DNA of 56,340 nucleotides from Burkholderiales bacterium (GTDB lineage: Bacteria; Pseudomonadota; Gammaproteobacteria; Burkholderiales; Burkholderiaceae_C), in the NCBI GenBank assembly GCA_003963075.1, contig RXJV01000047.1, positions 1-56,340 of the forward strand. The letters are read 5' to 3'. Positions 1 to 25,946 of the stretch are shown here, piece by piece (the stretch's first letter is position 1; the number at the start of each line of letters is the position of its first letter). Below the pieces are notes generated by a model. That model saw only the letters and a program-made list of their open reading frames with translations, was not told the origin of the DNA and made no database searches. Position numbers and translations under genes: made by a program.

Positions 1-167
1 GACTCCGGTTTTGTTTGGACAGGGGGTTTGGCGATTCCCAGTCTCTCAAAACCACTCCGGGTGAACACCCGCAACAACCTATTGAAGCTTCACACCTAGA
101 GCTGCAACTCCAAAGGGTCAGTTCTGGTCACCAACGGCACGGCGCAACAGCTACGATTCCTGACGCC

Positions 168-3143
168 GTGACCGAGTTCCCCGCCTCCAACGCCGCCGGT
201 CTACCCGCTCTTGGGCAGCGCCGTCTGCTGACCCTGCTGTTCGTGGACCTGTGCGCCTCCACCGCGATGGCCGAGTGGATGGAGGCCGAGCATTACGCCG
301 CCATGCTGGCGAGTTTGCGCGAGCTCTACGAGCGCATCGTGCCGCGTCACGGCGGCGTCATCGCGCGCATCCAGGGCGACGGCATGCTGGCCGTGTTCGG
401 CCATCCCGAGGTGCGCGAGGACGACGGCCGCCGCGCCACCGAGGCCGCGCTGGACCTGCATGCCGCCGTCCGCGAGCTGCTGCCACCGGGCCCGCGCCCG
501 GCCGACTTCGCTGGCCTGGCGCTGCACAGCGGCGTGCATGCCGGCATCGTGCTGGTCAACCAGGGCGACCAGATGCGCGGCCGTTTTGAGCTGCTCGGCA
601 ATGCCCCCAACATCGCCGCACGGTTGTCCGAGGCCGCGCGGCGCGACGAGATCATCGCCAGCGAGGAAAGCCTCGGCCTGCTGAGCCAGTTTTTCGACAC
701 CGGCCCGCGCTTCTCGCTGCAGTTGCGCGGCCGTGCGACGCCGCTGGCGGCCTACCGCGTGCACGGCCGCGCGGCCGTCGGCCGCCGTTTCGAGGCCAGC
801 GTGCGCCGGGGCCTGGCGCCCTTCGTCGGTCGCTGCGCCGAGCTCGCGACGCTGGAGGCCGCGCTCGCGCAGACCCTGCAGGGCCGCACGCTGTGGCTGG
901 GCATCCGAGCCGGTGCCGGCGTGGGCAAGACCCGGCTGACCGAGGAATTCCTGCGCCGTGCGGCCGACCAGCACTGCCGCATCCACCGCGGCTACTGTGA
1001 AAGCTATCTCAGCGCCGAGCCGCTGCAGCCCTTCCTGCAGATGCTGCGCGGCTTGGACGGCCTGGAAGACGCCCCGCCCGAACTCTTCGCGGCCCAGCAC
1101 AGCGCGCCGGGCCAGCGCGCCGACGCGCTGCTGGCCCTGCTGCTGGCCCTGGCGCGGCACACCCCGCAACTGGTCTGCATCGACGATCTGCAATGGGCCG
1201 ACGACGCCTCGCTGCGCCTGCTGCACCGGCTGCGCGCCGCTGCCACCGCCCAGGGCCTGCCGCTGCTGCTGCTGACCGCAAGCCGCCCGGTCAGCGAGCT
1301 GCCGGTCGCCCGCGACCAGCCGACCCAGCTCATCGAGCTGCCGCCGCTCAGCGAAATCGAAGCCGCGCATGCGGTGCAGCAGCTGCTGCCGCAGATCGAC
1401 CCCTTCATCGCCGCCGAGGTACAGCGCCATGCCGGCGGCAACCCGTTGTTCATCGAAGAGCTCTGCCATGCCGCGGCGGACACCGGCGAGGGCCCGGCCG
1501 AAAGCCAGAGCAGCTCGGCCTGGCTGGCCGCGCTGGTCGAGTCGCGGGTCGACCGCCTGGCCCCCAAGCAGGCCCGGCTGGTGCGGGTCGCCGCCGTCAT
1601 CGGCAATGTCATCCCGGTCTGGCTGCTCGAGATCCTGACCGGCTGCGGCGAACAGCACCCCGACGTGCAGGCCCTGGCCGCGCAGGACTTCATCTTCCCG
1701 GACCAGCGCCCCGGCCACCTGCGCTTCAAGCACGGCATCACCCGCGACGTCGTCTACGAGGCCACCGGCCTGCACGAGCGCCAGGCCCTGCACCGCCACA
1801 TCAGCGTCGCGCTGGCAGCTCGTGGCGGCGATGAGAGCCAGCTGCATGAACAGCTCGCCTATCACGACGCCGCTGCCAACGACTGGCCGGCTGCCGCGCG
1901 CCATGCCGAGGCCGCCGGCGACCAGGCCCTGGCCGTGTCGGCCCTGGACCGCGCCAAAAAACAGTTCCGCGCCGCGCTGGCCGCGCTGGAGTTCCTGCAG
2001 CGCCCCGACGAGGGCGACGACGTGGCCGGCGAGCACCGGCGCCGCTGGATCAGCATTGCCCAGCGCCTCGGGATGGCCTGCGTCTTCGACGCCTCCCAGG
2101 ACGATCTGCGCGTGCTGCGCCACGCGGCCGAGCTGGCCCATGCCGATGGCGACGCCAGCCTGATCGCCCGCACCGAATACTGGCTGGCCTACATCGGCTA
2201 CGCCCTCGGCGAGACCTGCGACAGCCTGCGCCATGCGCGCGAAGCCGTGCTCACCGCGACGGCCTGCGGCGACACCGCGCTGCTGGCCCAGCTCCCGGCC
2301 ACCGTCGGCCAGATCCACGCCGCGACCGCGAACTATGCCGAGGCCCTGCCGATGCTGGACCTGGCCATCGCCCGCCAGCGTCCCCGCGCCAGCAAGAGCG
2401 CGGCCAACCGCATCGGGCTGTCCTATTCGCTGTGCTGTCGCGCCTATGTGCGGGGCGACCAGGGGCATTTCGCCGAGGCGCATGAGCTGTTCGCCGAGGC
2501 CCTGGCGCCCTTTGACGGCAGTGGCCATGCCGTGGAGGCCAGCATGCAGGGCTGGCGCGCCGCCGTGCTGCTGTGGCAGGGCCGCTGGGCCGAGGCCCGC
2601 GAGGCGGCGGCCGTGGCCCACCGCGTCGGCGCCCAGGTGCGCAGCATGTTCACCTGCGCGATGGGCCATGCCGCCGGCGCCTATGGCGCCTGGATGCAGG
2701 AGCGCGACCCCGCTGCGCGGCAGCGCATCCTCGACGCCAACGCCTGGCTCGCGCCGCGCGGCGGCGGCCTGTACAGCAGCTTCCCGCACGGCTGGCTGGC
2801 CGACATCCTGTCCGAGCAGGGCGATGCCGGCGCGGCCCGCCAACATGTCGCGCTGGCCCTGCGGCGCGGCCGGCAGCACGACTGGGTCGGCGGCGCCATG
2901 GCCTACCGCGCGGCGGCCCGGCTGGCGGCGCGCATCGGTGACTCGCAACGCGCCCGGCGCTACCTCGAGCTCGCGCGCCGCGCCGGCGAACGCCGCCAGT
3001 CGGCACACGAAGCGGCCGTCACGGCGCTGGTGGAGGCGGAGCTGAAGCTGGATGAGGGCTGGCCGGCCGCGCTGGAGCAGGCGCGGGCGGCGTTCGAACG
3101 CATGGGCATGGTGGGCTTCCTGCAGCGGGCGGCGGCGACCTGA
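168..3143 (+). CDS. Class III nucleotide cyclase / AAA ATPase / TPR signalling protein
   Basis: Large cytosolic regulator of the cyclase-AAA-TPR type. An N-terminal class III adenylate/guanylate cyclase homology domain (residues ~20-190) shows candidate metal-binding Asp27 (in LLFVDL) and Asp71 (in QGDGML). A P-loop ATPase follows, with Walker A GVGKT (Lys254) and Walker B CIDDLQWAD (Asp339-Asp340). The C-terminal half is helical and TPR-like. Family members sense ligands through the TPR part and may or may not make cyclic nucleotide; activity cannot be judged here. Start is uncertain: the frame is open to the left edge, with a TTG at 15. Codons 15-167 have poor third-position GC while codons from GTG 168 match the genome, so I chose 168. 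Neither start has a good ribosome site. No partner gene is visible because the window begins here. Confidence 0.8.
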   Translation: MTEFPASNAAGLPALGQRRLLTLLFVDLCASTAMAEWMEAEHYAAMLASLRELYERIVPRHGGVIARIQGDGMLAVFGHPEVREDDGRRATEAALDLHAAVRELLPPGPRPADFAGLALHSGVHAGIVLVNQGDQMRGRFELLGNAPNIAARLSEAARRDEIIASEESLGLLSQFFDTGPRFSLQLRGRATPLAAYRVHGRAAVGRRFEASVRRGLAPFVGRCAELATLEAALAQTLQGRTLWLGIRAGAGVGKTRLTEEFLRRAADQHCRIHRGYCESYLSAEPLQPFLQMLRGLDGLEDAPPELFAAQHSAPGQRADALLALLLALARHTPQLVCIDDLQWADDASLRLLHRLRAAATAQGLPLLLLTASRPVSELPVARDQPTQLIELPPLSEIEAAHAVQQLLPQIDPFIAAEVQRHAGGNPLFIEELCHAAADTGEGPAESQSSSAWLAALVESRVDRLAPKQARLVRVAAVIGNVIPVWLLEILTGCGEQHPDVQALAAQDFIFPDQRPGHLRFKHGITRDVVYEATGLHERQALHRHISVALAARGGDESQLHEQLAYHDAAANDWPAAARHAEAAGDQALAVSALDRAKKQFRAALAALEFLQRPDEGDDVAGEHRRRWISIAQRLGMACVFDASQDDLRVLRHAAELAHADGDASLIARTEYWLAYIGYALGETCDSLRHAREAVLTATACGDTALLAQLPATVGQIHAATANYAEALPMLDLAIARQRPRASKSAANRIGLSYSLCCRAYVRGDQGHFAEAHELFAEALAPFDGSGHAVEASMQGWRAAVLLWQGRWAEAREAAAVAHRVGAQVRSMFTCAMGHAAGAYGAWMQERDPAARQRILDANAWLAPRGGGLYSSFPHGWLADILSEQGDAGAARQHVALALRRGRQHDWVGGAMAYRAAARLAARIGDSQRARRYLELARRAGERRQSAHEAAVTALVEAELKLDEGWPAALEQARAAFERMGMVGFLQRAAAT

Positions 3144-3295: not shown

Positions 3296-6200
3296 TCACA
3301 CCGCCAGCGCCACCACCGTCGGCGAGCCCGTGAAGCGCATCACGCCGGCGTCCAGCACCGCGGCGATGACGCCCAGCATCACCCCCATGCCCATGCCATA
3401 GCCCGGGCAGGCATGCGGGGGCGGGCCGGCCGGGTCGGCGCGGTCGCCGCCGAAGGCCACATGGTGGCGCAGCGGGTCCTGCTGGGTGGCCGAGCCCAGG
3501 GCCACGACCAGGGTGTCGCCCGCCTTTACATCCACCGCGCCAAGCCGGTGGTCGACACGGGCACGGCGCCAGATCTGGAAGGGCGTGGGCCGCAGGTTCA
3601 GCGTGGCCACCAGCGTGGGGCGCAGGCGGGCCACGGCGGCGGTGTAGCGCTCCGGCAGGCTGGCGCCGGCGGGCACCTCGTGCCACAGCGGCTGCAGGTC
3701 CCAAAGCTTGCGGGTCTGCACCCAGGCGGCCAGCGTGGTCAGCAGATTGGCATGGGTGGTGGGCGGAAAGCCCAGCATCACGCCGGCCAGCGTGCGGGTG
3801 GGCAGGTCGGCCGGCGCACCGGGCACGTCGCGCGCCGCCGCGAGGATGGCCTGGGTCAGCTTGGGCAGCTGTTCAAAGGGCGTGGCGGCCAGCCAGCGGT
3901 CGACGGCCTCGGTGAAGCCACGGCCGGCGCTGCGGCCCTCGGCACAGACATTGGGCGTCGGATGCGGCCCGAAGACATAGCGAGATACGCGGAACAGCGC
4001 GGCCGGGCAGCGCGGTGCGGCAGCCCCACCGGGCGGGTGGAACTCGGTGCCCCAGACATGCTGGCCATCGGGCACGCCGAACCAGATCCGGCACAGCGCG
4101 GCCAGCACGCCTTCGCTGAGGCGCTCCAGGTCAAGCGGCGTGTCGGTCGGCAGGTCGGCCGGCTTCTGGCTGGCCGGGAAGGCGGCCAGCAGCGCCTGGG
4201 CCTCCTGGCGCAGGCCGGCGATGCCGGCAGTCGCAACCTGGTAGGCGGCCATGAAGGCGTCGGCCTCGCTGACGCCCTCGAGCACCCGGTTGACGACGGG
4301 CGCCTGCTCGCGGTGGCCGCTGTCGTCGTCCAGGCCCAGGAAGCCGACGCCGACCGAGTCGGCCATGCGCTCGCCATAGCCGGACACCGAATAACGGTCC
4401 GGTGCGTTGCGCAGCACCTCCTGCACGCGCTCGGCCGCACCGACCAGCACGCCATAGGCCGTCGCCACCACGCCGCCGGGCTGCTGGCGCACCCAGGCCC
4501 AGGCGGCGTCGCGGCGGTTGCTGTCCTCCAGCCAGCCCTGCCAAGCCGCGTAGTCGGTCAGCGCGGGCATGGCCGGCGGCAGCGGCGCGGCGGGCAGCTG
4601 CGGCAGCGGCAGCTCAACCAGGCCGGGCAGGGCCTTGAGCGCCCGCACCGACGGCACAAAGAAGTACGCCCCCCATTGCAGCGTGACGAAGGGCTCGTGG
4701 CCGAGGTCGATCTCGTAGGCGCGCTTGTTGTGCTCGAAGGGATAGACGCGCGGGCCGGCGTTCGCATCGACGACGCCGAGCAGCGGGTCGCTCTGGCCGG
4801 AGTAGCCGCCGCTGGCATTGCCCCCGGCCACCCAGCGCTGGATGACCTCGAACTGCTCCGCCAGGTGGGCGTTGTAGGCCATGAAGACGAGGCCGCGGTC
4901 GGCATCGTCGGCCGGCTGCTGGCGGTTGGGCGGCGGGCCGTAGCTCATGCCGCGGCGCAGGATGCGTGGCATGCGGCTGCGCGCAAAGGCCTGGTCGCCG
5001 CCGAGGTCGCGCGGGTTGCTGCGCCGGATGTGGGCGTGGAAGGGGCAGAGCGCGCCCTGGCGGTCGGCCTCGTAGTTGAAATCGTTGACGGCAGTGTCGT
5101 CGGCCAAGGGCTCGCCACTGCGCCAGCGGCCCATCAGCTTGGCCAGCAGCAGCTCCTTGGGCAGGCCCGTGCGGGCGGCCTCGGCCGTCACGCGTGCATC
5201 GAGCCGGCCCACGTACTGGCGCAGCTTGCGCACGACCAGGAAGCTGCCGCGGTCTAGCAGCGCGTCGGGCTGTTCGGGCACGGCATAGTCCTTGTCTCGC
5301 GCGGTCGGGTAGCCCTGCAGGATTTCACCGTCGGGCACGCGGTCGTCCCAGCGCTGGCCGGTGGGCAGGGGCGTCTGCCACTGCGGCGTGGGCTGGCTGA
5401 TGCCGTCCTTGAAGCCGAAGTTCTCGCTGTCCAGCGCATTGCTGCGCAGCGGCTCGACGGCCATCAACGCCAGGCCGGTGCCCTGGGTCAGGGCCAGCGC
5501 CGCAGCATCGATGCGGGCGCGGTCGGCCGGCGTGACGGCCTCGCCGGCCTCGGCGCTGGCGAAACGCAGTTGCACCAGCAGGTGGGCGCCGGCCGGGTCG
5601 AAACGGTCGCGGCCATTGACATGCGGAGCCAGCGCCCAATGCGCCGGATGGTTGTGCCGCACATCGCCGAGCAGGCCGGCGCGGGCGGCCATGCCCTCCT
5701 TGAAGGCCTGCGGGAAGCGCTCCAGCCGCCCCTGCGGCACGCCCAGGGCCGTCAGGCCGGCCAGCGTCAGCGCGACCTGGGTCCAGACGCCCTGCAGCGG
5801 CCCGGCTGCGGGCGGCTGCTGGCCCTGGGCCGTGACCGGCGCGGTCGACAGCCAGGCCAGGGCCTGGCTGGGCTGGCTGATGCGCATCAGCAGCAGCGCG
5901 CCGCGGTTGGCCGGCAGCCTGGTGAGCAGGCCGGCCTGCAGGTCGGCCTCGGCCAGCGGCAGCTCGCGGGCATGGACGGGCGGCGCCTGCGGGCTGCCCT
6001 CGAACCACTCCAGCATCGCGTAGTGGCGGCGGCGCAGCAGCTCGCCGGGCGATTGGCCCGCGCCGATCGGGAACTGTTCGCGGGTGCCGAGGCGGGTCAG
6101 CTCGAAGAGCACGTCCTGGGCGGCGCGCAGCAGCACCTGGCCGTCCCAGGCCTGCGCATTGAAGTAACGCTGCAGCGTGAACAGGCCGGCCAGCGGCACC

Positions 6201-6826
6201 AGGCCGCGTGCCGCCATCGCGAAGCGCTCGGCCGGCTCGGTGGGCAGGGGCGCCACCTCACCGGCAGCCGGCGCGCGCAGCCGGTCGGCACCGAGCTCGC
6301 TGGCGCGGCCGCGCTGGCTGGCCTCCAGCTTGGCGAGGTATTCCGCATCGCTGACGGTGCGGCCGGACTCGATGAACAGGAAGTCGGCCGAAATCTCGTG
6401 CGCCCGCACCCAGCGGGCATAGGCCTCGAAGCTGCAGTTGCAGGACAGCTCATAGCCCTCGACATGGCAGAGGATCAGGTCCAGCGTCGAGCCGAGCTGG
6501 TCCCAGATGACCCGCATATAGGGCTCCCAGCCGCCGTCGAAGTTGACGTTCAGCAGCAGCCGGTCGGGCGCGCCGTTCTTGCCCTCGACCACCGCCCAGC
6601 GGAAGGAGTGCACGATGCGCCAGCGCGCGACGATGTCGGTGTAGGGCGAGGCCGGCGCGCTGGATTCGCGCGAGCCCAGCCGCAGGCCGTTGAGGGTGCG
6701 CAGCACCTTGCGCAGGCGGTCGACATAGGTCGCCACCTCCAGCGCGTCGACAAAGCCCGGCTTGATGTCGGCGAGCAGCACCAGGTCCGTGATGCCGCCG
6801 AGTTGAACGTCGTTGCCGCGCGCCAT
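3296..6826 (-). CDS. DyP-type peroxidase / cytochrome P450 fusion protein
   Basis: A 1,176-residue protein carrying two haem enzymes. Residues ~1-285 are a region I do not recognise. Residues ~288-760 are a dye-decolourising peroxidase domain with the GFKDG motif (catalytic Asp474), the proximal haem ligand in HAHIRR (His599) and the distal arginine in RRGMSYGP (Arg624/625). After a proline-rich linker, residues ~775-1176 are a cytochrome P450 with the haem-thiolate loop PHACPGYGMG (Cys1140) close to the C-terminus. DyP enzymes use H2O2 to oxidise dyes, lignin models or porphyrins; P450s oxygenate substrates. In the fusion, peroxide chemistry and oxygenation could be coupled (inference). The P450 K-helix ExxR motif is not apparent. 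Start ATG 6826 has GGGAG upstream; a TTG at 6853 is in frame but weaker. No signal peptide is seen. It stands alone as a transcription unit. Confidence 0.85.
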   Translation of the reverse strand: MARGNDVQLGGITDLVLLADIKPGFVDALEVATYVDRLRKVLRTLNGLRLGSRESSAPASPYTDIVARWRIVHSFRWAVVEGKNGAPDRLLLNVNFDGGWEPYMRVIWDQLGSTLDLILCHVEGYELSCNCSFEAYARWVRAHEISADFLFIESGRTVSDAEYLAKLEASQRGRASELGADRLRAPAAGEVAPLPTEPAERFAMAARGLVPLAGLFTLQRYFNAQAWDGQVLLRAAQDVLFELTRLGTREQFPIGAGQSPGELLRRRHYAMLEWFEGSPQAPPVHARELPLAEADLQAGLLTRLPANRGALLLMRISQPSQALAWLSTAPVTAQGQQPPAAGPLQGVWTQVALTLAGLTALGVPQGRLERFPQAFKEGMAARAGLLGDVRHNHPAHWALAPHVNGRDRFDPAGAHLLVQLRFASAEAGEAVTPADRARIDAAALALTQGTGLALMAVEPLRSNALDSENFGFKDGISQPTPQWQTPLPTGQRWDDRVPDGEILQGYPTARDKDYAVPEQPDALLDRGSFLVVRKLRQYVGRLDARVTAEAARTGLPKELLLAKLMGRWRSGEPLADDTAVNDFNYEADRQGALCPFHAHIRRSNPRDLGGDQAFARSRMPRILRRGMSYGPPPNRQQPADDADRGLVFMAYNAHLAEQFEVIQRWVAGGNASGGYSGQSDPLLGVVDANAGPRVYPFEHNKRAYEIDLGHEPFVTLQWGAYFFVPSVRALKALPGLVELPLPQLPAAPLPPAMPALTDYAAWQGWLEDSNRRDAAWAWVRQQPGGVVATAYGVLVGAAERVQEVLRNAPDRYSVSGYGERMADSVGVGFLGLDDDSGHREQAPVVNRVLEGVSEADAFMAAYQVATAGIAGLRQEAQALLAAFPASQKPADLPTDTPLDLERLSEGVLAALCRIWFGVPDGQHVWGTEFHPPGGAAAPRCPAALFRVSRYVFGPHPTPNVCAEGRSAGRGFTEAVDRWLAATPFEQLPKLTQAILAAARDVPGAPADLPTRTLAGVMLGFPPTTHANLLTTLAAWVQTRKLWDLQPLWHEVPAGASLPERYTAAVARLRPTLVATLNLRPTPFQIWRRARVDHRLGAVDVKAGDTLVVALGSATQQDPLRHHVAFGGDRADPAGPPPHACPGYGMGMGVMLGVIAAVLDAGVMRFTGSPTVVALAV

Positions 6827-6918
6827 GAGCTGTCTCCCAGGATGTGCCTGCAAGTATCCCGGCAGCGCATGACGCGTGAACTGCGCTGACCCCCCTAGTT
6901 TGAGATGGCCCGCCGGCT

Positions 6919-15764: not shown

Positions 15765-16607
15765 TCAAAAGCCCAGCGCGCGCTGGCGCCGCCAGGCCTG
15801 CGGCGTCATGCCGGTGCGGGCCCGGAACGCGGTCGAGAAATTGCCCGGCGTCCGGAATCCCACCTCGAAGGCCACGCCGTTGACGCTCATCGACGTCTTC
15901 TCCAGCAGCGGCAGGCTCGCCCGGATGCGCTGCTCGCTGATATAGGCCTGCAGCGTCAGCCCGGTGTGGCGGCGGAACAGTTCGCGCAAGCGGCGCGCGC
16001 CCACGCCCACCTGGCGAGCCAGTTCCGGCGCCGACGGCAGCGTGGCCAGCTGGGCCTCGATCAGGCTCTTGGCCGCGCTGACATGGGCCAGCTCGGGGTC
16101 CAACGGCTCCGGCACCGGCAGGGCGGCGTCCGGCAGATGCACCCGCACCCGGGCCAGCACCTCGGCGGGCCACAGCGGCTTGCAGATGTAGTCGGCCGCG
16201 CCCGCCTCCAGGCCGCGCACGCGGTCGTCGGGCTCGGTGAGGTCAGACATCAGCAGCACCGGGATGGCGGCGGTCTGGCCGTCCGCCTTGAGCAGCCGGC
16301 AGGCCACCAGCCCGTCGACCACGCCGGGCAGGCAGGTGTCCATCAACACGAGATCCGGGCGCTGGCCCTGGGCACGGTGCACGCCGGACAAGCCATCGGT
16401 GGCGAACGTCAATGCGAAGCGGGTGCTCAGCAGGCCGGTCACGGGCCGCAGGCCCGCCGGCTGCCCCGCCACCACCAGCAACCGTTGCCGCGCGGGATGC
16501 CCCTCGAACGCGGCATGGTCGTAACCAGACATTTCTTGCATGTCAGCCGTGGAGTCGTGCACGAAACGCTGTGATGGTAGGGCCACAACCTGCCAGATAG
16601 AAAACAT
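15765..16607 (-). CDS. Response-regulator-like protein with AraC-type DNA-binding domain
   Basis: A cytoplasmic transcription factor of about 280 residues. The receiver domain (~residues 40-160) has the phosphate acceptor Asp in LVLMDTCLPG and the Lys in CKP. The acidic pair expected after strand 1 is replaced (LLVVAGQPAG), so Mg-dependent phosphorylation may be weak or lost. The C-terminal ~90 residues are a double helix-turn-helix of the AraC family, ending TGMTPQAWRRQ. Start is uncertain: ATG 16607 is used, with in-frame ATGs at 16541 and 16532 also possible. It is transcribed away from the two-partner secretion genes across a short shared intergenic region, so it may regulate them (inference). 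No cognate kinase is adjacent. Confidence 0.8.
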   Translation of the reverse strand: MFSIWQVVALPSQRFVHDSTADMQEMSGYDHAAFEGHPARQRLLVVAGQPAGLRPVTGLLSTRFALTFATDGLSGVHRAQGQRPDLVLMDTCLPGVVDGLVACRLLKADGQTAAIPVLLMSDLTEPDDRVRGLEAGAADYICKPLWPAEVLARVRVHLPDAALPVPEPLDPELAHVSAAKSLIEAQLATLPSAPELARQVGVGARRLRELFRRHTGLTLQAYISEQRIRASLPLLEKTSMSVNGVAFEVGFRTPGNFSTAFRARTGMTPQAWRRQRALGF

Positions 16608-16680
16608 TTACAGCCACTTTCAAAAGGCACGAAATCATGGGCGAGCAAGGATTCGGCACGCTTGTCAGCGGGAGACCCAA

Positions 16681-18468
16681 GTGCGTGCACCACAGCGAAC
16701 CAGGCATTGCCAGCCCGTCCGGTCCTCAGCCACGCGAGGCCAGTCACCCACAACACGCCGCCAGCGCCGGCCCGGACTCGGCCCGGTGAACGCGGTCTGC
16801 GCGGCGCTGCTGGCGGGACTGCTGGCCGGCCAGGCGGCGGCCCAGACGACGCCCGATGCCGGCCAGCTGATGCAGCAGAACCAGCGCAACAAGGCCGCGG
16901 ATCTGCCGCGCAAGGGCAGTGGCGCCGAACTCGCCGCCCCGGTGGCGACGCTCAATATGGCCGGTGGCGCCACGGTGACGGTCAAGGCCTTCAGGTTCCA
17001 GGGCAACACCCTGCTGAGCGAAGACCAGTTGCAGCGCACCGTCACCGGCTATCTCGATCGCAAGCTGGACTTCCGCGAGCTGCAGGAGGTCACGGCGCTG
17101 GTGTCCAAGCGCTACAAGGCCGAGGGCCGGCTTGCCCGGGCCTTTCTGCCCGCCCAGGACGTCACCGACGGCCAGGTCACGATCCAGATCCTGGAAGCGC
17201 GCTACGGCGGCACCGAGGTCGAGCAAAGCGGCCAACGCCTCGCGCCCGACCAGGCCCGCGCCATGATGGAGCAGGGCCAGGTGCGCGGCGAGGCGCTGGA
17301 CCTGGTGGCCCTGGACCGCGCCCTGCTGCTGATCAGCGATCTGCCCGGCGTGAAGGCCAGTGCCAGCCTGGTGCCCGGCAGCGCGGCCGGCGAGACCGCC
17401 GTCGCGCTGAACCTGCGCGACCAGGACCTGCTGAGCGGCCAGGTCAGTGTGGACAACGCCGGCACCCGCTCGACGGGTGCCTTCCGTGCGAACGCCCTGG
17501 TGGCATGGAACAGCGCGCTGGGCGTCGGCGACCAGTGGACCGCCCAGCTCAGCCAGAACCAGGGCAGCAGCTTCGTGCGTCTGGGCGCGTCGGTGCCGGT
17601 CGGCCCGCAGGGCGTGCGTGTCGGCCTGACCGGCAGCGCCCTGCGCTACCGCCTGGTCGGCAGCGACTTCGACGCACTGAATGCCCGCGGCACCGCATCG
17701 TCGCTGGGCCTGGAGGCGAGCTACCCGCTGATCCGCTCGCGCGAGCGCAACCTGTCGCTGCAGGGCGTCTACGAAAACAAGCGTCTGCGCAACAAGGCCA
17801 ATGGCACGGACATCTCGAACTACAAGTCCGATCTGCTGACCCTGGCCTTGCTCGGCAACCAGTTCGACGACCTCGGCGGCGGCGGCTCCACCACCGCCTA
17901 TTTCGGCGTCCAGTTCGGCAACCTCAACCTGGACGGCTCGCCCAACCAGGCCTTCGATGCCGCCGGGCCACGCACCGCGGGCAGCTTCCGCAAGCTGCGC
18001 TACCAGCTGTCGCGCCAACAGACCCTGGCGGCCGGCGTGTCCGGCTATGTCTCGCTGCAAGGCCAGTGGGCCAGCCGCAACCTCGACTCGTCCGAGCGCT
18101 TCTACCTCGGCGGCCCGCAGGCCGTGCGTGCCTACCCGGTCAGCGAGGGCGGCGGTGCAATCGGACAGCTGCTCAATGCCGAGCTGCGCTGGCGCCTCGA
18201 AGACGGCTGGCGCTTGACGGGCTTCGCCGACTTGGGCCACATCACGACGAATGCCGATGCCGGCTTCGCCGGCGCCGTGACACCGAACAGCTACTCGCTC
18301 AAGGGAGCCGGCCTCAGTGTCGACTACGCCGGCCCGAGCGGGCTCGATGCCAGCCTGATCTGGGCCCGGCGTCTGGGCACCAACCCCATGGCGGACGCCC
18401 GTGGACGCGACCTGGACGGGTCGCTTGAACGCAACCGCTTCTGGCTGCTCGTCAGCCAGCAGTTCTGA
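16681..18468 (+). CDS. TpsB outer-membrane transporter (ShlB/FhaC/HecB family)
   Basis: A 595-residue outer-membrane pore of two-partner secretion, which exports the adhesin encoded next. After a long basic N-region and a signal peptide (VNAVCAALLAGLLAG, cleavage near AAA-QT) comes a POTRA region (~residues 100-200, with FRFQGNTLLSEDQL and LPAQDVTDGQVTIQILEARYG). A 16-strand-type barrel follows, with the family's conserved RLG / FYLGGPQAVRAYP elements. The terminal residue is Phe (LLVSQQF), the outer-membrane assembly signal. GTG 16681 was chosen because GGGAG lies six bases upstream; a later GTG at 16786 would begin at the signal peptide itself. Gap to tpsA is only 17 bases. Confidence 0.88.
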   Translation: MRAPQRTRHCQPVRSSATRGQSPTTRRQRRPGLGPVNAVCAALLAGLLAGQAAAQTTPDAGQLMQQNQRNKAADLPRKGSGAELAAPVATLNMAGGATVTVKAFRFQGNTLLSEDQLQRTVTGYLDRKLDFRELQEVTALVSKRYKAEGRLARAFLPAQDVTDGQVTIQILEARYGGTEVEQSGQRLAPDQARAMMEQGQVRGEALDLVALDRALLLISDLPGVKASASLVPGSAAGETAVALNLRDQDLLSGQVSVDNAGTRSTGAFRANALVAWNSALGVGDQWTAQLSQNQGSSFVRLGASVPVGPQGVRVGLTGSALRYRLVGSDFDALNARGTASSLGLEASYPLIRSRERNLSLQGVYENKRLRNKANGTDISNYKSDLLTLALLGNQFDDLGGGGSTTAYFGVQFGNLNLDGSPNQAFDAAGPRTAGSFRKLRYQLSRQQTLAAGVSGYVSLQGQWASRNLDSSERFYLGGPQAVRAYPVSEGGGAIGQLLNAELRWRLEDGWRLTGFADLGHITTNADAGFAGAVTPNSYSLKGAGLSVDYAGPSGLDASLIWARRLGTNPMADARGRDLDGSLERNRFWLLVSQQF

Positions 18469-18485: not shown

Positions 18486-21400
18486 ATGCACGAACACGCC
18501 AGCCTCAATCGCATCTTTCGTCTGGTCTGGAGCGCGGCACAGGGCTGCTGGGTCGCCGTCCATGAACACGCCCGCGGCCGCAGCAAGGCCGGCCGCAGTG
18601 CGCGCCGCGCCAACGCGCTGAGCGCCGTCGGCCTCGCCAGCCTGCTGGCGCTGGGCGCGGGGCCCGGCGCGGCACTGGCACAGGTCGCGGCCAATGCCAC
18701 GCCGCAAGGCGGCAAGCTGGTGGCCGGCCAGGCCAACTGGCAGCAAAGCGGAACCAACCTCACCGTCAACCAAAGCAGCAGCCGCGCGGCGATCGACTGG
18801 ACCAGCTTCGACATCGGCCGCAATGCCAGCGTGGTGTTCCGCCAGCCGGACGCGAACAGCGTGGCGCTGAACCGCGTCACCGGCGGCGCACCCAGCCAGA
18901 TCTTCGGCCGCCTGTCGGCCAACGGCCAGGTCTTCCTGACCAATGCGGCGGGCGTCTACTTCAGCCCCACGGCGCAGGTGGACGTGGGCGCCCTGGTCGC
19001 GACTACGGGCAGCCTCGGCACCGACGATTTCATGGCCGGCCGCTGGACCTTCAACCGCGCCGGCAGCACCGCCAGCGTCGTCAACGAGGGCCGCCTCAGT
19101 GCAGCCCCCGGCGGCTATGTGGCGCTGCTGGCGCCCGAGGTGCGCAACGCCGGCGTCATCACCGCCCAGGCCGGCACCGTGGCCCTGGCCGCCGGTGAAG
19201 CGGTGGAACTGCAGTTCAACGGCGGCAGCCTTGCCAAGCTGCGCGTCACGCCGGCCCAGGTGGCCACCCTCGTCGAGAACCGCCAAGCCATCCTCGCGCC
19301 GGACGGCCAGATCCTGATGTCGGCCCGCGCCGCCCAGGCGCTGCACGATGGCGTCATCCGCGACAGCGGCGAGCTGTCGGCCAGCAGCCTCGTTGCCAAG
19401 GGCGGCCGCATCGTGCTGGAGGCTGACCGGGTCGACATCGCCAGCGGCGCGTCGATCCGCGCCACCGGTGCCACCGGCGGCGGCCAGATCAACATCGGCG
19501 GCAATTACCAGGGCCAGGGCGAGCTCTGGAACGCCACCACCACCCGCATCGCCAGCGGCGCCAGCATCGACGCCAGCGCCACCCGCCAGGGCGACGGCGG
19601 CAACGTGGTGGTGTGGGCCAACGACCGCACCGACTTCAACGGCCGCATCAGCGCCCGCGGTGGCGCGCTGGGCGGCAATGGCGGCGTGGTCGAGACCTCG
19701 GGCAAGCAGACCCTGAACGTGCGCACCGGCCGGGTCGACGTCAGCGGCAGCGCCCAGGGCGGCAAGGGCGGCACCTGGCTGCTGGACCCGAACGACCTGA
19801 CCATCGGCACCGGCAGCAACACCAACATCACCGGCAGTTTCGGCACCACCGACGACGGCGCCTTCCTCAGCACGGCCTCGCTGGCCGCGGCGCTGACCAA
19901 CGGCTCCAACGTCGTCGTGCTGACCAACAACGGCGGCAGCAACCTCGGCCGCGGCGACATCACCGTCAACGGCGCCATCACCACCTCGCTGGCTGCCTCC
20001 CAGTCCGCCACGCTGACGCTGGCCGCGCAGGGCGACATCAACATCGCCAGCGGCGGCTCCATCGCGGCGGGCGGCGCCGACCGCTCGCTCAACGTCAACC
20101 TGTACGCCGGCACCCAGCTCGGCGGCGGCTCGCCGGGCAGCGTGGCCAGCCAGATCTCGATGAGCTCGGGCACGTCGATCAACACCGGCCAGAGCGGCAA
20201 CCTGACCGCCATCTCCAAGGGCGATGTGACGCTGGCCAACGCCACCCTCGGCGGCGCGCTGACCGTGACGACCAACAACGGCGCCTTTGCCCAGGTGACG
20301 GGCAGCGCCCTCACGGTGACCGGTGCCGCCACCGTCAACGCCGGCACCAAGGAAGTCGCCTTCAACAGCGCGTCCAACCAGCTCAGCGGTGCGATCAGCT
20401 CCACCGGCACCGGCGCGGTGACGATCAAGAACACGCTGGCCACCAACCTCGGTGCCATCGGCGCGTCCGGCGCGGCGGCGCTGAGCCTGGACGTGACGAC
20501 GACCAACGCCGCCGTCACCCAGAGCGGCCCGGCTTTCGTCACCGGCGACACCACGGTGCGCGCCGGCAGTGGCGCGGTCACGCTCAACCAGGCCGGCAAC
20601 CAGTTCACCGGCGGCATCAACTCCACCGGCACCGGTGCGGTCACGCTGGTCAACAGCAGCGCCACCACGCTCGGCACCATCGGCACCAACGGCGGCGCGG
20701 TGGCCAGCCTGTCGGTCACCACCAACAATGCCAACGTCGGCCAGAGTGGCACGTCCTACGTCGCGGGCACCACCACGGTCGCGGCGGGCAGCGGGGCCGT
20801 CAATCTCACCAACACCGGCAACCAGCTGGCCGGCGCGGTCAGCTCCACTGGCACCGGCGCGGTCACGCTGCGCAATGCGGTCGACCTGGTGCTCGGCGCG
20901 ATCGGTACCGGCGGCAGCCCGGCTGCGAGCCTGAGCGTGCGCACCGCCAGCGGCGGCATCACCCAGACCGGCGCGGCCCTGGTTGCCGGTACCACGCTGC
21001 TGCGCACCGACACCGGCGGCGCCATCACCGTCAACAACGCCGGCAACCAGTTCGCCGGCGCGATCTCGACCGTCGGCAGCGGCGCGGTCACCCTGACCAA
21101 CGGCGTGGCCACGGTGCTCGGCCAGATCGGCAGCAGCGGCAGCCGCGCCACCAGCCTGAGCCTGACGACGACGAACGCGGCCGTCAGCCAGACCGGCACG
21201 GCCTATGTGGACGGCGCCACCACCATCAACGCCGGCAGCGGTGCGGTCACGCTGGACAACGCCAACAACAAGCTGACCGGCGCGGTCAGCTCGACCGGCA
21301 GCGGCGCGGTGACCCTGGTCAACAACCAGGCGCTCAACCTCGGCACCATCGGCGCCTCGGGCGCCGGCAATGCCGCGGCCAGCCTGACGGCCACCACGCC

Positions 21401-24400
21401 CAACGGCGCCGTCACCCAGAGCGGCACGGCCTATGTGGCCGGCACCACCACGGTCAATGCGGGCAGCGCGGCCGTCACGCTCAACAATGCGAGCAACCAG
21501 CTGGCCGGCGCCATCAGCGCACCGGGCCGCGGCGATGTGACCGTGGTCAACACCGTGGCCACGGTGCTCGGGCCCATCGGCGCCAGCGGTGTGGGCGCGG
21601 CGGCATCCAGCCTCAGCGTCACGACCACCAACCAGGCCGTCACGCAGACCGGCGCGGCCATCGTCAGCGGCGCCACCACGGTCAGCACCGGCTCGGGCAA
21701 CGTCACGCTGACCAATGCCGGCAATGCGCTGGGCGGCGCGGTCACGGTCACCAACACCGGCAGCGCCAACGTCAGCTCCAGCGGCGCGCTGGGCATCACC
21801 TTCACCGGCAGCGGCGCCACCACGGCCACGGCCGGCGGCGCGCTGACGGCCACGCTGAGCGGCACCGGCGCGACGACGCTGTCCGGCGCGGGCGTGACGG
21901 CCTCGGGCACGGCCGCCAGCCTCAGCAGCACCAGCACCGGCACTACCACGCTGGGCACCACCTCTGCCACCGGCAACGTCAGCTTGAACAGCGTTGGCGC
22001 CGTCTCCCAGACCGGCGCGCTCGCCGCCAACGGCCTGGAGCTCAAGGGTGATGGCGCGGTCGCGCTGACCAACACCGGCAACAACATCGCGACCGTCGCG
22101 GCCGCCACCGGCGCCGGCGACATCAACGTCGTCAACAGCGGTGCACTGGCCGTCGGCACGGTCAACAGCGTCGGCGTCACGCGCGCAGGTGCCGTGTCGC
22201 TGAGCACGCTGACGGGCAACCTCACGCTGAACCAGTCCGTCACCACGACCAGCACCGCCAACAACGCCGTCGTGCTGAACGCCGGCAGCAGCGCGGCCGC
22301 CGGCACCGGCGCGGGCGGCAACCTCATCGTCGCGGGCGGCTCGACCGTGGGCGTCGGCAGCGGCGGCCGGGCCACGCTCTACTCCGGCACCGTGGCCGGC
22401 AGCACCGGCCTGACCGCCTTGGTCGGCAGCGGCAGCGGCCGCTTCCGCTACGGCAGCAACGCGACGACGACCAACTTCACGACGCCGCTCGGCGCCGGCG
22501 TGAATGCGGTCTACCGCGAATCGCCCACCGTGACGATCACCGCCGACAACCTGACCCGCACCTATGGCACGCCGCTCGCGGCCACGGTCAGCCTCGCCGG
22601 TGCGCTCAACGGCGACACCCAGGCGCAGCTGTTCACCACCGGGCCGACGTACAGCGTCGGCGGCAGCTTCTCGACCTCCAACAATCCCATCGTCGGCGCC
22701 CACAGCATCACGCCCTCCGGCGCGGTGAACGGCCTGGGCTACACGCTGGCCTATGGCGCACCGGGCACGCTGACCGTCACCGCGGCCAGCATCAGTGCGG
22801 TCACCGGCATCACGGCGGCCAACAAGGTCTACGACACGACCACCGCCGCGACGCTGACCACCAGTGGCGCCGCCTTCACCGGCCAGATCACGGGTGACCT
22901 GCTGACGCTGGGAGGGGCGCCCACCGGCAACTTCTCGGACAAGAACGTCGGCACCGGCAAGACGGTCAACATCACCGGCCTGAGCCTCGGCGGCGCCGAT
23001 GCCGGCAACTACACGCTGGCCAGCAGCACCGCGACGACGACGGCCAACATCACGCCGGCCTCGATCAGCGCCATCACGGGCATCACCGCCGCCAACAAGG
23101 TCTATGACGGCACCACGGCCGCCACGCTGGTCACCGGTGGCGCCGGCTTCACCGGCCGGCTCGGCGCCGACGTGCTGACCGTGGCCACCGGCACCGGTAC
23201 CTTCAGCGACAAGAACGTCGCCAACGGCAAGACGGTCAACATCACCGGGCTGACGCTGGGCGGCGCCGATGCGGGCAACTACACGCTGGCCAATGCCACC
23301 GCCAGCGCCACCGCCAACATCACGCCGGCCACCATCGCCGCCATCACGGGCATCACCGCCGCCAACAAGGTCTACGACGCGACGACCGCCGCGACCTTGA
23401 CCACGACGGGCGCCGGCTTCACCGGCAAGGTCAGCGGCGACAACCTCACGGTCGCCAGCAGCACCGGCGCCTTCAGCGACAAGAATGTCGCCAACGGCAA
23501 GACGGTCAACATCACCGGCCTGACGCTGGGCGGCACCGACGCGGGCAACTACACGCTGGCCTCCAGCACCGCGAGCACGACCGCCAACATCACCCCGGCC
23601 CAGCTGACCGCGATCACCGGCATCACCGCGGCCAACAAGGTCTACGACGCGACGACGGCCGCCACTCTCACGACGGGCGGCGCGGGCTTCACGGGCAAGC
23701 TCGGCAGCGATGTGCTGACGGTCGCGACCGCCACCGGCAACTTCAGCGACAAGAACGCCGGCAACGGCAAGACCGTCAACATCACCGGGCTGAGCCTGGG
23801 CGGCGCCGATGCGGGCAACTACCTGCTGCCCACCGGGGCCACGACGACCACGGCCAACATCACCCCGGCCAATATCGCCGCCGTCACCGGCATCACGGCG
23901 GCCAACAAGGTCTACGACGGCACCACCAATGCCACGCTGAACACCGGCAGCGCCGGCTTCACCGGCAAGCTCGGCAGCGATGTGCTGACGGTCGCCACCA
24001 GCACCGGAAGCTTCAGCGACAAGAACGTGGCCAACGGCAAGACCGTCAGCATCAGCGGCATCACGCTGGGCGGCACCGACGCCGGCAACTACAACCTGCT
24101 CAGCAACACCGCCAGCACCACGGCCAACATCACGCCGGCCACGATCAGCGCAGTCACCGGCATCACCGCGGCCAACAAGGTCTACGACACGACCACCGCC
24201 GCCACGCTGACGACCACCGGCGTCGCCTTCACCGGCAAGGTCACCGGTGATGTGCTGACGCTGGGAGCCGCGCCCACCGGCAATTTCTCGGACAAGAACG
24301 TCGCGAATGGCAAGACGGTCAACATCACCGGCCTGAGCCTGGCCGGCGCCGATGCCGGCAACTACACGCTGGCCGGCAGCACCGCGACGACGACGGCCAA

Positions 24401-25946
24401 CATCACGCCGGCCTCGATCAGCGCCATCACCGGCCTGCTGGCAGCCAACAAGGTCTACGACGGCAACACCACGGCCGCCCTGGTGACGTCGACGGCCGGC
24501 TTCACCGGCAAGCTTGGCAGCGATGTGCTGACGGTCGCGACCGCCACCGGCAACTTCAGCGACAAGAACGTCGCCAACGGCAAGACCGTCAGCATCACCG
24601 GGCTGACGCTGGGCGGCACCGATGGCGGCAACTACACGCTGGCCTCCAACACGGCCAGCACCACCGCCAACATCACGCCAGCCAGCATCAGCGCGATCAC
24701 CGGCATCACCGCCGCCAACAAGGTCTACGACACCACGACCGCCGCGACCTTGTCGACCACCGGCGCCGGCTTCACCGGTCTGGTCGCGGGTGACAAGCTG
24801 ACGGTGGCGACCAGCACCGGCAACTTCAGCGACAAGAACGTCGGCACCGGCAAGACCGTCAACATCACCGGCCTGAGCCTGGGCGGAGCGGACGCCGGCA
24901 ACTACACGCTGGCCAGCAGCACCGCCAGCACGACGGCCAACATCACGGCCGCACAGCTCGGCGCCATCACCGGCATCACCGCCGCCAACAAGGTCTACGA
25001 CGCCACCACGGCCGCCACCACCAACATCAGCGGCGCCGGCATCACCGGCGTGCTGGCGGGCGACGTGGTCAGCGTGGGGGCGGCCACCGGCACCTTCAGC
25101 GACAAGAACGCCGCCGCGGGCAAGACCGTCACGCTGGCGATCACGCTGGCGGGCACCGATGCCGGCAACTACAAGCTGCCGGCCAGCACGACGACCACCG
25201 CCGACATCACCAAGGCCACATTGGCCAACGTGACCGGCATCACAGCCCTCGACAAGGTGCAGGACGGCAACTCGGTGGCCACGCTGGTGACCGGCAATGC
25301 GGTGTTCAACGGCAAGATCAGCGGTGATGTGCTGACCGTGGCCCAGGCCAACGGCCAGTTCAACGACGGCCTGCCCGGGCTGAACAAGCCGGTGGCCATC
25401 ACCGGCATCACGTTGGGCGGCACCGATGCCGGCAACTACACGCTGACCAGCAACACCGGCAGCACCACGGCCAGCATCACCCCGCTGCCGCCGGTGTTGC
25501 CGACGGTGTCCACGCCGCTGACGCTGCTGCTCGCGACATCCGCCGATGGTCCCACGCTGAACACCGATGATGCGGTGCTGGTGGCCGGGGCTCCCGGGTC
25601 GACCGGGGCCCGAACCAATGCGGTGGATGCTCAGGGCCTGGTCGTCAAGGCGGTGCGGGAACTGACCGCGCTGAATGGCGGCGAGTTCGTCGTCACGGTG
25701 CCGCGTGCGCTGCTGGAGCGCGGCTTCAGCTTCCCGTTGCCGCTCAGCCTGCGCTCGGCGATCCGGACCGATGGCAAGGTCGCGGTGTCCGGGCCCGACG
25801 GCAAGGCGCTGCCGGCCTGGCTGACGCTGGACTCGACAGCGCTGGAGATGCGCGCCGCACCGGTGCCCGCAGGCGGCCTGCCGCTGCGCGTGATGTTCAG
25901 GCAGGGCAACGGCCAGCTGACCGACATCCTGATCGAAGTGCGCTGA
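18486..25946 (+). CDS. TpsA filamentous haemagglutinin-like adhesin with YDG repeats
   Basis: A 2,486-residue exoprotein secreted by the TpsB pore. The N-terminus is an extended signal peptide (MHEHASLNRIFRLVW ... cleavage near ALA-QV). The TPS secretion domain follows (~residues 67-300, with NRVTGGAPSQIFGRLSANG and LTNAAGVYFSP). The middle is a Ser/Thr/Gly/Ala-rich beta-helix containing about six repeats of ~74 residues (~614-1089). An MBG-like module (VTITADNLTRTYGTPLAA) then leads into ten YDG repeats of ~90 residues (~1435-2335), each with ITAANKVYD, GKTVNITGL and AGNYTL. The last ~150 residues are non-repetitive. Such proteins mediate adhesion, aggregation or contact-dependent effects; no toxin domain is visible at the C-terminus. 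AAGGAG precedes the ATG. Confidence 0.9.
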   Translation: MHEHASLNRIFRLVWSAAQGCWVAVHEHARGRSKAGRSARRANALSAVGLASLLALGAGPGAALAQVAANATPQGGKLVAGQANWQQSGTNLTVNQSSSRAAIDWTSFDIGRNASVVFRQPDANSVALNRVTGGAPSQIFGRLSANGQVFLTNAAGVYFSPTAQVDVGALVATTGSLGTDDFMAGRWTFNRAGSTASVVNEGRLSAAPGGYVALLAPEVRNAGVITAQAGTVALAAGEAVELQFNGGSLAKLRVTPAQVATLVENRQAILAPDGQILMSARAAQALHDGVIRDSGELSASSLVAKGGRIVLEADRVDIASGASIRATGATGGGQINIGGNYQGQGELWNATTTRIASGASIDASATRQGDGGNVVVWANDRTDFNGRISARGGALGGNGGVVETSGKQTLNVRTGRVDVSGSAQGGKGGTWLLDPNDLTIGTGSNTNITGSFGTTDDGAFLSTASLAAALTNGSNVVVLTNNGGSNLGRGDITVNGAITTSLAASQSATLTLAAQGDINIASGGSIAAGGADRSLNVNLYAGTQLGGGSPGSVASQISMSSGTSINTGQSGNLTAISKGDVTLANATLGGALTVTTNNGAFAQVTGSALTVTGAATVNAGTKEVAFNSASNQLSGAISSTGTGAVTIKNTLATNLGAIGASGAAALSLDVTTTNAAVTQSGPAFVTGDTTVRAGSGAVTLNQAGNQFTGGINSTGTGAVTLVNSSATTLGTIGTNGGAVASLSVTTNNANVGQSGTSYVAGTTTVAAGSGAVNLTNTGNQLAGAVSSTGTGAVTLRNAVDLVLGAIGTGGSPAASLSVRTASGGITQTGAALVAGTTLLRTDTGGAITVNNAGNQFAGAISTVGSGAVTLTNGVATVLGQIGSSGSRATSLSLTTTNAAVSQTGTAYVDGATTINAGSGAVTLDNANNKLTGAVSSTGSGAVTLVNNQALNLGTIGASGAGNAAASLTATTPNGAVTQSGTAYVAGTTTVNAGSAAVTLNNASNQLAGAISAPGRGDVTVVNTVATVLGPIGASGVGAAASSLSVTTTNQAVTQTGAAIVSGATTVSTGSGNVTLTNAGNALGGAVTVTNTGSANVSSSGALGITFTGSGATTATAGGALTATLSGTGATTLSGAGVTASGTAASLSSTSTGTTTLGTTSATGNVSLNSVGAVSQTGALAANGLELKGDGAVALTNTGNNIATVAAATGAGDINVVNSGALAVGTVNSVGVTRAGAVSLSTLTGNLTLNQSVTTTSTANNAVVLNAGSSAAAGTGAGGNLIVAGGSTVGVGSGGRATLYSGTVAGSTGLTALVGSGSGRFRYGSNATTTNFTTPLGAGVNAVYRESPTVTITADNLTRTYGTPLAATVSLAGALNGDTQAQLFTTGPTYSVGGSFSTSNNPIVGAHSITPSGAVNGLGYTLAYGAPGTLTVTAASISAVTGITAANKVYDTTTAATLTTSGAAFTGQITGDLLTLGGAPTGNFSDKNVGTGKTVNITGLSLGGADAGNYTLASSTATTTANITPASISAITGITAANKVYDGTTAATLVTGGAGFTGRLGADVLTVATGTGTFSDKNVANGKTVNITGLTLGGADAGNYTLANATASATANITPATIAAITGITAANKVYDATTAATLTTTGAGFTGKVSGDNLTVASSTGAFSDKNVANGKTVNITGLTLGGTDAGNYTLASSTASTTANITPAQLTAITGITAANKVYDATTAATLTTGGAGFTGKLGSDVLTVATATGNFSDKNAGNGKTVNITGLSLGGADAGNYLLPTGATTTTANITPANIAAVTGITAANKVYDGTTNATLNTGSAGFTGKLGSDVLTVATSTGSFSDKNVANGKTVSISGITLGGTDAGNYNLLSNTASTTANITPATISAVTGITAANKVYDTTTAATLTTTGVAFTGKVTGDVLTLGAAPTGNFSDKNVANGKTVNITGLSLAGADAGNYTLAGSTATTTANITPASISAITGLLAANKVYDGNTTAALVTSTAGFTGKLGSDVLTVATATGNFSDKNVANGKTVSITGLTLGGTDGGNYTLASNTASTTANITPASISAITGITAANKVYDTTTAATLSTTGAGFTGLVAGDKLTVATSTGNFSDKNVGTGKTVNITGLSLGGADAGNYTLASSTASTTANITAAQLGAITGITAANKVYDATTAATTNISGAGITGVLAGDVVSVGAATGTFSDKNAAAGKTVTLAITLAGTDAGNYKLPASTTTTADITKATLANVTGITALDKVQDGNSVATLVTGNAVFNGKISGDVLTVAQANGQFNDGLPGLNKPVAITGITLGGTDAGNYTLTSNTGSTTASITPLPPVLPTVSTPLTLLLATSADGPTLNTDDAVLVAGAPGSTGARTNAVDAQGLVVKAVRELTALNGGEFVVTVPRALLERGFSFPLPLSLRSAIRTDGKVAVSGPDGKALPAWLTLDSTALEMRAAPVPAGGLPLRVMFRQGNGQLTDILIEVR
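20325..21760 (+). repeat. Six ~74-residue repeats in the adhesin stalk
   Basis: About six in-frame repeats of roughly 222 bases plus a partial seventh. Each holds GTTTVNAGSGAVTL, then AGNQLAGAVSSTGTGAVTL and LGTIGASG. Copies vary at many positions, so they are diverged rather than recent duplications. Confidence 0.75.
22788..25490 (+). repeat. Ten tandem YDG-type repeats (~270 bases each)
   Basis: Ten tandem modules, nine with an ANKVYD core and a last, degenerate one with LDKVQDG. Several modules share near-identical stretches (for example the GKLGSDVLTVAT block in four of them), so recombination between units is likely. This matches the YDG domain of filamentous haemagglutinin-like proteins. 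Confidence 0.85.

Follow-up and report, generated by a model that had tools for sequence, protein, structure and literature searches.

The stretch of DNA analysed here (the window; 56,340 nucleotides [nt] from contig RXJV01000047.1 of a Burkholderiales bacterium) encodes on its minus strand, between positions 3296 and 6826, one protein of 1176 residues in which an N-terminal domain that we call FDG is followed by a DyP peroxidase domain and a cytochrome P450-type domain. The gene begins with ATG at 6826 and ends with a stop codon at 3296 to 3298; an alternative upstream start, TTG at 6853, would extend the protein to 1185 residues. The FDG domain (residues 1 to 170; 6317 to 6826), with a predicted alpha/beta fold and the motif NFDGGWEPYMR, is connected by a stretch that is helical in the AlphaFold2 secondary structure (residues 171 to 300; 5927 to 6316) to the DyP domain (residues ~301 to 738; 4613 to 5926), after which comes the P450-type heme-thiolate domain (residues ~745 to 1176; 3299 to 4594), all on the minus strand. 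The AlphaFold2 model of the full-length chain has a mean pLDDT (predicted local distance difference test) of 82.7 and a pTM (predicted template modelling score) of 0.75. The G+C content at third codon positions is 0.93, 0.93, and 0.91 in the N-terminal, DyP, and P450 parts, respectively, as in ordinary coding sequence, and show no break from one domain to the next. As judged from its relatives, the gene is one form of a wider cassette in which an FDG-DyP pair is accompanied by a second heme enzyme.

An earlier note, made from the letters of the window alone, had described a DyP fused to a P450 in one chain, with a frameshift or an assembly join named as one way in which this could be wrong. 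We looked at relatives of the gene, using peptide patterns from the window protein on genome contigs of one genome per species. The 71 loci retrieved belong mostly to Burkholderiales (Roseateles/Pelomonas, Variovorax, Rubrivivax, Xenophilus, and others) and also to Bradyrhizobium; nine are truncated at contig ends, and a few pairs represent parts of a single genome. In all 71, the match is contained in a single open frame, and all 63 sequences that are complete (those of 62 loci and of the window, with the nine incomplete loci left out) keep D97, D474, H599, R624, and C1140. This rules out a frameshift, chimera, or assembly join as the origin of the fusion, which is real and natural. The residue numbers D474, H599, R624/625, and C1140 given in that note are right for the ATG start on the minus strand; residues 1 to 300, comprising the FDG domain and the helical stretch, and the cassette as a whole had been overlooked. 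The window-type fusion is rare within its order: a strong match to the C-terminal domain was found in 3 of 300 sampled genomes (the window's own included) and a marginal one in 4 more, and three marginal matches checked by profile (L084, L085, and L087) consist of a short match in a frame of 417 to 501 amino acids (aa). One window-type fusion (L044), in Variovorax sp. WS11, is on a contig titled as plasmid pVarWS11_iso, and the gene may thus be mobile. The plasmids in PLSDB hold no fusion; 84 records match, none of them over 80% of the query.

The DyP domain is recognised by the Pfam model Dyp_perox_C (PF20628; 25.9 bits, cut-off 20). TIGR01413 matches with an E value of 1.5e-28 and 100.1 bits, 0.4 under its cut-off of 100.5, PF21105 stays below its cut-off (13.3 against 27.5 bits), and PF04261 has no match anywhere in the genome. 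The closest solved relative is DrDyP, the class C/V DyP of Deinococcus radiodurans (8re2/8re3), both by sequence (8re3, E = 1.3e-43) and in a Foldseek search with the AlphaFold2 model, where ranks 1 to 26 are all DyPs (best again DrDyP, E = 8.5e-24). Across 72 aligned rows, with gapped rows left out residue by residue, the Asp of the GxxDG motif (D474; codon 5405 to 5407, minus strand) is D in 70/70 (2 rows gapped), and H599 (5030 to 5032) and R624 (4955 to 4957), likewise on the minus strand, are H and R in 69/69 each (3 rows gapped). From the motifs we take H599 to be the proximal heme ligand and R624 the distal Arg.

The C-terminal domain is too divergent for the Pfam P450 model: none of 46 window-type C-domains, the window's included, matches PF00067 at an E value of 1 or below. 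A profile of the 46 domains retrieves P450s in 26 of 27 rows of the PDB search, albeit weakly (best E = 0.003), including NzeB, NascB, and AspB, which we count as P450s. With the structural model, Foldseek lists P450s below the DyPs (8q5j, E = 1.6e-8; BM3; CYP51). The strongest evidence for P450 identity is indirect and comes from the homologous P450s of related cassettes, which appear to place the domain in this family: 15 of 16 pass the PF00067 cut-off (L154 falls below), and their I-helix, K-helix, and Cys loop can be aligned with those of the window domain. C1140 (codon 3407 to 3409, minus strand), the predicted heme thiolate ligand in FGGxR...HxCPG, is C in 66/66 window-type domains (6 of the 72 rows gapped); F1125, G1126, H1138, and G1142 are equally invariant, as are W1086 and R1087 (67/67). 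The Cys loop is longer than in the P450s of other cassettes.

Two further features set the window-type domains apart from textbook P450s. At P1022-T1023 of the I-helix (3758 to 3763, minus strand), the acid of the acid-alcohol pair is absent in 67/67 domains, with Pro in 66 and Ala in 1, and the following alcohol is kept throughout (Thr in 60, Ser in 7). The acid is also absent in 16/16 P450s of the other cassettes, of which L145, L149, and L154 are irregular in this stretch. At the expected ExxR site, the window protein has A-T-L-N (residues 1074 to 1077; 3596 to 3607, minus strand), so the motif is lost; it is present in 1 of 67 window-type domains (L033) versus 16 of 16 P450s of permuted or separate architectures.

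Neither Pfam nor NCBIfam has a model that matches the FDG domain, which is modelled with a pLDDT of 84.2. The only structural hint from Foldseek is to alpha/beta-barrel proteins such as 1q4r (probability 0.85, E = 0.17). Profile searches with the window-type N-domain gave weak matches in other Pseudomonadota, which proved to be in proteins that contain a DyP or in genes next to one, and hhalign aligned this domain with the FDG proteins of other bacteria, window-type members excluded, with an E value of 1e-17 and a probability of 98.9.

The FDG profile, which includes three window-type rows, was run on 398 sampled Pseudomonadota genomes and matched in 27, whose surroundings were then searched with FDG, DyP, P450, and catalase-like profiles (the window serving for its own genome, G000). 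A DyP is fused to or near the FDG match in all 27, on the same strand and within about 1 kb (widest gap ~0.9 kb, L153). The third partner is a P450 in 17 and a catalase-like protein in 7. The 17 P450s comprise 2 fused in the window's order (G000 and G759), 6 fused in the permuted order P450-FDG-DyP (G815, G708, G918, G840, G838, and G1001), and 9 encoded by a separate gene. In L097, the P450 part was recognised by the window-type profile, and G759 carries a second FDG-DyP pair at a contig end with no third partner visible there (L098). The clearest unfused case, L103, is a row of two FDG genes, a DyP gene, a P450 gene (PF00067, E = 3.8e-20), and one GST-like gene. Loci from a class-level search agree in part, with a permuted fusion in L102, a catalase-like partner in L099 and L101, and neither in L100. 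L141 (7655 to 10387), one of the 7 with a catalase-like partner, holds a third type of fusion, a DyP and a catalase-like domain in one 911-aa frame. The catalase-like profile finds 3e4w as its best PDB match, and also catalases and the coral allene oxide synthase (AOS) 1u5u (E = 1.3e-9); Pfam gave no match for the two single catalase-like sequences tried. Comparison of the sequences thus demonstrates three domains in one chain, conserved heme-ligand and catalytic motif residues, an FDG-DyP pairing in all cases looked at, and a P450 or catalase-like third partner in 24 of 27 cassettes.

As a control, Dyp_perox_C was run on the same 398 genomes, and the positions of its matches were compared with those of FDG by coordinates (rows counted by eye, in agreement with the counts per genome). 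It finds 145 places, 132 with an E value of 2.8e-21 or below and 13 weaker. None of the 132 ordinary DyPs has an FDG match nearby, whereas 10 of the 13 weak ones are DyPs of FDG cassettes (the others being in G684, G422, and G812). FDG therefore accompanies a DyP subfamily that the Pfam model scores poorly. Since that model detects the cassette DyPs in only 10 of the 27 genomes, the control gives no count of subfamily DyPs that lack FDG. Possible members of this kind are two poorly scoring DyPs without an FDG match nearby, at G422:C1:5485591-5486064 and G812:C127:74418-74582, in frames of 544 and 548 aa. Separately, a DyP match at G883:C10:17270-17743 lies inside a 1216-aa open frame and is possibly another DyP fusion.

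The cassette extends beyond Pseudomonadota. In each of six records opened, for variety, from the 84 matching plasmid records, the DyP has an FDG gene on its upstream side (E = 6e-40 to 7e-16; gap ~1.5 kb in L159), and in two of them a catalase-family gene is downstream. The hosts represent five phyla, Deinococcota (D. radiodurans), Actinomycetota, Cyanobacteriota, Acidobacteriota, and Pseudomonadota. The record from Sinorhizobium chiapasense has another FDG gene after the DyP (L155:6530-7051), with NIPSNAP and DUF4331 genes beside it. Taken together, these cassettes suggest a little-explored bacterial two-heme oxidation system.

A quick IQ-TREE phylogeny of 51 DyP domains bears on how the fusions arose. 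The position of its root is not known, and one row, L154, forms a long branch. All 15 window-type rows fall to one side of a branch supported at 100 by the Shimodaira-Hasegawa-like approximate likelihood ratio test, and the 7 permuted fusions lie on one side of another (92). Mapping P450 or catalase labels onto the tree needs four changes, with nine rows that have neither left out. The opposite domain order of the two fusion clades suggests two joinings of DyP and P450, and the simplest reading of this tree is two separate fusions plus repeated exchange of the third partner.

We propose that the window gene encodes a natural fusion enzyme, predicted to have two heme sites, in which a P450 step driven by peroxide or hydroperoxide follows the action of DyP and FDG, and we put the probability of this reading at roughly 0.43. 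The FDG domain might serve the DyP as a substrate-binding or docking module. The DyP domain, in turn, would activate H2O2, or form or handle an organic hydroperoxide, and the P450 domain would then consume that peroxide as a peroxygenase or hydroperoxide isomerase. We infer a peroxide-driven P450 because the acid for oxygen activation is missing and the chain has no redox-partner domain. A lipid is our favoured guess for the substrate. Segments with a mean Kyte-Doolittle hydropathy of 2.0 or more over 19 residues occur in 7/7 permuted fusions and in 11 of 28 FDG reading frames, and L097 (356 to 5152) is a window-type fusion of 1599 aa whose C terminus is extended by a region resembling GDSL lipases (E = 7.5e-6); we counted both as lipid hints. 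The gene may also be tied to a signal, by which it would be induced or which it would feed, given its usual linkage to a nucleotidyl cyclase/AAA/TPR protein: of the 61 eligible window-type loci, 55 have a homologue of that protein no more than 6 kb downstream. The earlier note's idea of sequential oxidation through a peroxide intermediate is made more likely by the acid-less P450, by a catalase-superfamily protein in the same slot, and by fusion clades of opposite order; it keeps the status of a proposal, and a reductase-like gene near the permuted fusion of L095 is evidence to the contrary.

Several observations weigh against this proposal. Activity, substrate, and heme content are all predicted. 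No Foldseek match to the FDG fold has an E value below 0.08 and none is significant; the idea that FDG is a duplicated DyP half found no support either (hhalign E = 0.41, probability 0.14%), so that no relation of the domain to DyP is apparent. The lipid hints are weak, as the GDSL match, seen in a single protein, is below the Pfam cut-off, 17 of 28 FDG frames lack a segment that reaches the hydropathy threshold, and the best segment of the window protein (1.94, the helix after C1140) is below it. Three of the 27 cassettes (G705, G749, and G994) have neither a P450 nor a catalase-like gene. Upstream of the permuted fusion in L095, at ~2.2 kb, the frame L095:2-625 is reductase-like, with PF00175 (NAD_binding_1) and PF00970 (FAD_binding_6) above their cut-offs, and is a possible electron donor, so that a conventional electron supply is conceivable. 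The loss of ExxR could equally be a sign of a P450 in decay. With the catalase-like profile, the scores of true catalases are like that of coral AOS, and a catalase-like partner fits detoxification just as well, which is a serious rival. DrDyP, finally, is inactive as a peroxidase at neutral or physiological pH, according to the part of its structure paper available (PMC10820274), although we conjecture that its inactivity when on its own may mean that partners matter.

Detoxification is the core of one such alternative, a unit for peroxide defence or sensing in which the DyP and its catalase-like or P450 partner would remove H2O2 or organic peroxides and the linked cyclase would signal the stress. 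The catalase-superfamily partners, the frequent cyclase linkage, and the presence of the cassette in the stress-resistant D. radiodurans all agree with such a role. P450s, however, are poor peroxide scavengers, and yet they are the commoner partner of the cassettes. Moreover, the stretch that is DAH or DQH, presumably the distal His site, in 4 of 11 aligned catalase-like proteins is GGN, AGN, or FNQ in the other 7, and defence leaves the FDG domain without explanation; on balance, we consider this role unlikely. We find it distinctly unlikely that the fusion is a conventional P450 monooxygenase served by free-standing redox partners and linked to a peroxidase so that hydroxylation and coupling follow one another, in a pathway that makes secondary metabolites or degrades aromatic compounds. 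The gene in L095 would suit such a pathway, as would the dyes and lignin compounds that DyPs oxidise, according to the accessible part of one paper (PMC8230527), and the NCBIfam matches of the L103 P450, which are mostly to secondary-metabolism models, all far below cut-off. Against these stand the acid of the acid-alcohol pair, missing in 83/83 P450 domains (67 window-type and 16 others), a reductase motif in only 1 of 89 loci scanned (L095), and neighbour clustering (BLAST and inspection by eye), in which no reductase recurs among the matches listed.

The departures of the window-type domain from other P450s, namely 0/46 matches to PF00067, 1/67 with ExxR, and a lengthened Cys loop, could alternatively mark a degenerate, non-catalytic heme-binding or structural module, and P450-derived helper proteins are known (NCBIfam TIGR04515, to which L103 has a weak match). 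This seems quite improbable to us, as seven residues invariant in 66/66 or 67/67 domains, C1140 among them, are unlike a dead pocket, and P450s without ExxR can still bind heme. A bolder extension of the peroxide-driven scheme holds that the FDG-DyP core makes or activates a hydroperoxide which an interchangeable hemoprotein, P450 or catalase-type, would turn into an oxylipin-like signal, independently of cyclooxygenase (COX), lipoxygenase (LOX), and the fungal dioxygenases (DOX). We regard it as more doubtful than probable. If true, it would be a bacterial hydroperoxide pathway not described before, its FDG-DyP pair present in five phyla and FDG a new enzyme component.

For the peroxide-driven reading, one close formal parallel is the fungal DOX-CYP fusions (Ppo/linoleate diol synthases), to which the earlier note had likened the gene. 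As there, a heme peroxidase-type domain is fused to a C-terminal P450, so the analogy holds for the layout and in part for the P450. It does not extend to the peroxidase family: the window chain has a DyP, with a ferredoxin-like fold, and not a COX-like (animal-type) heme peroxidase, as Dyp_perox_C is its Pfam match and the Foldseek rows shown are DyPs and P450s; it also has the extra FDG domain, and the opposite domain order exists. Fungal 8R- and 9R-AOS, which have a distal Thr, are reported to be self-sufficient, and the 9R-AOS motif is printed with Gly, likewise a non-acid, before that Thr, where window-type domains have Pro (PMC13049297). The missing acid is consistent with a P450 that is self-sufficient and acts on a hydroperoxide.

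The CYP152 peroxygenases and CYP74 are likewise peroxide-using P450s in which the acid-alcohol residues of the I-helix are altered; no sequence link to these was shown, and window-type domains differ in having Pro for the acid while the Thr stays. The coral AOS-LOX fusion (catalase-type AOS fused to LOX; 3dy5, 1u5u) similarly pairs an oxygenase with a second heme enzyme, one that the profile of the catalase-like partner matches. The cassettes, however, have DyP and FDG and no lipoxygenase, and 3e4w and true catalases match about equally well. With these reservations, the exchange of P450 and catalase-type partners resembles that between CYP74 and the coral catalase-type AOS, and FDG-DyP-P450 would be a counterpart, not a homologue, of the cascades that combine COX, DOX, or LOX with a self-sufficient P450 or a catalase-type AOS. 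If so, here too the P450 and catalase folds would have been enlisted as the second enzyme beside a partner that forms peroxide, and the cassettes would offer peroxide-driven biocatalysts with a built-in peroxidase.

In the D. radiodurans plasmid record (L156), the DyP gene lies between an unannotated FDG gene upstream and a 'catalase family protein' gene downstream; unlike in the window, the genes are separate and there is no P450. Judging by species and family, we infer that this DyP is the crystallised DrDyP. The part of the DrDyP structure paper available contains none of the words operon, catalase, and P450, and it describes as unclear what DyP peroxidases do in nature and which substrates they use (PMC10820274). 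For one DyP subfamily, this question becomes testable through the conserved partner domain and the second heme enzyme, fused in two opposite orders. Among the matches listed in the open-access literature (titles and beginnings of abstracts), we found no description of a DyP-P450 fusion or an FDG cassette, in line with the earlier note, which named no characterised example. The DyP and P450 folds and fungal peroxidase-P450 fusions are known, whereas the combination, the FDG component, and the exchange of partners are undescribed in the literature searched.

The convergent, tail-to-tail neighbour of the window gene (15 to 3143, plus strand) encodes, according to Pfam, a class III nucleotidyl cyclase with an AAA ATPase and a TPR region. 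Its homologues are convergent within 1.2 kb in 41 of the 61 eligible loci (the 71 minus 6 without a 3' end and 4 with under 1500 nt downstream), and on the same strand as the fusion in L042 and L047. A response-regulator cyclase considered as a second conserved neighbour was dropped, since its matches in 38 of 61 loci were mostly cross-matches. In 7/7 permuted fusions, the gene immediately upstream, in the same orientation, encodes a TPR-containing regulator (e.g., L144:3450-5111); that of L144, the only one tested, has a SARP-like N terminus by a weak NCBIfam match. A scan for ferredoxin Cys patterns gave dozens of chance matches, mostly in frames overlapping the main or other genes, and settles nothing; a promoter and terminator scan found none. 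Further along the window, on the plus strand, the genes at 16540 to 18468 and 18486 to 25946 resemble, by eye, a two-partner secretion pair, a transporter-like protein followed by a repetitive exoprotein of 2486 aa.

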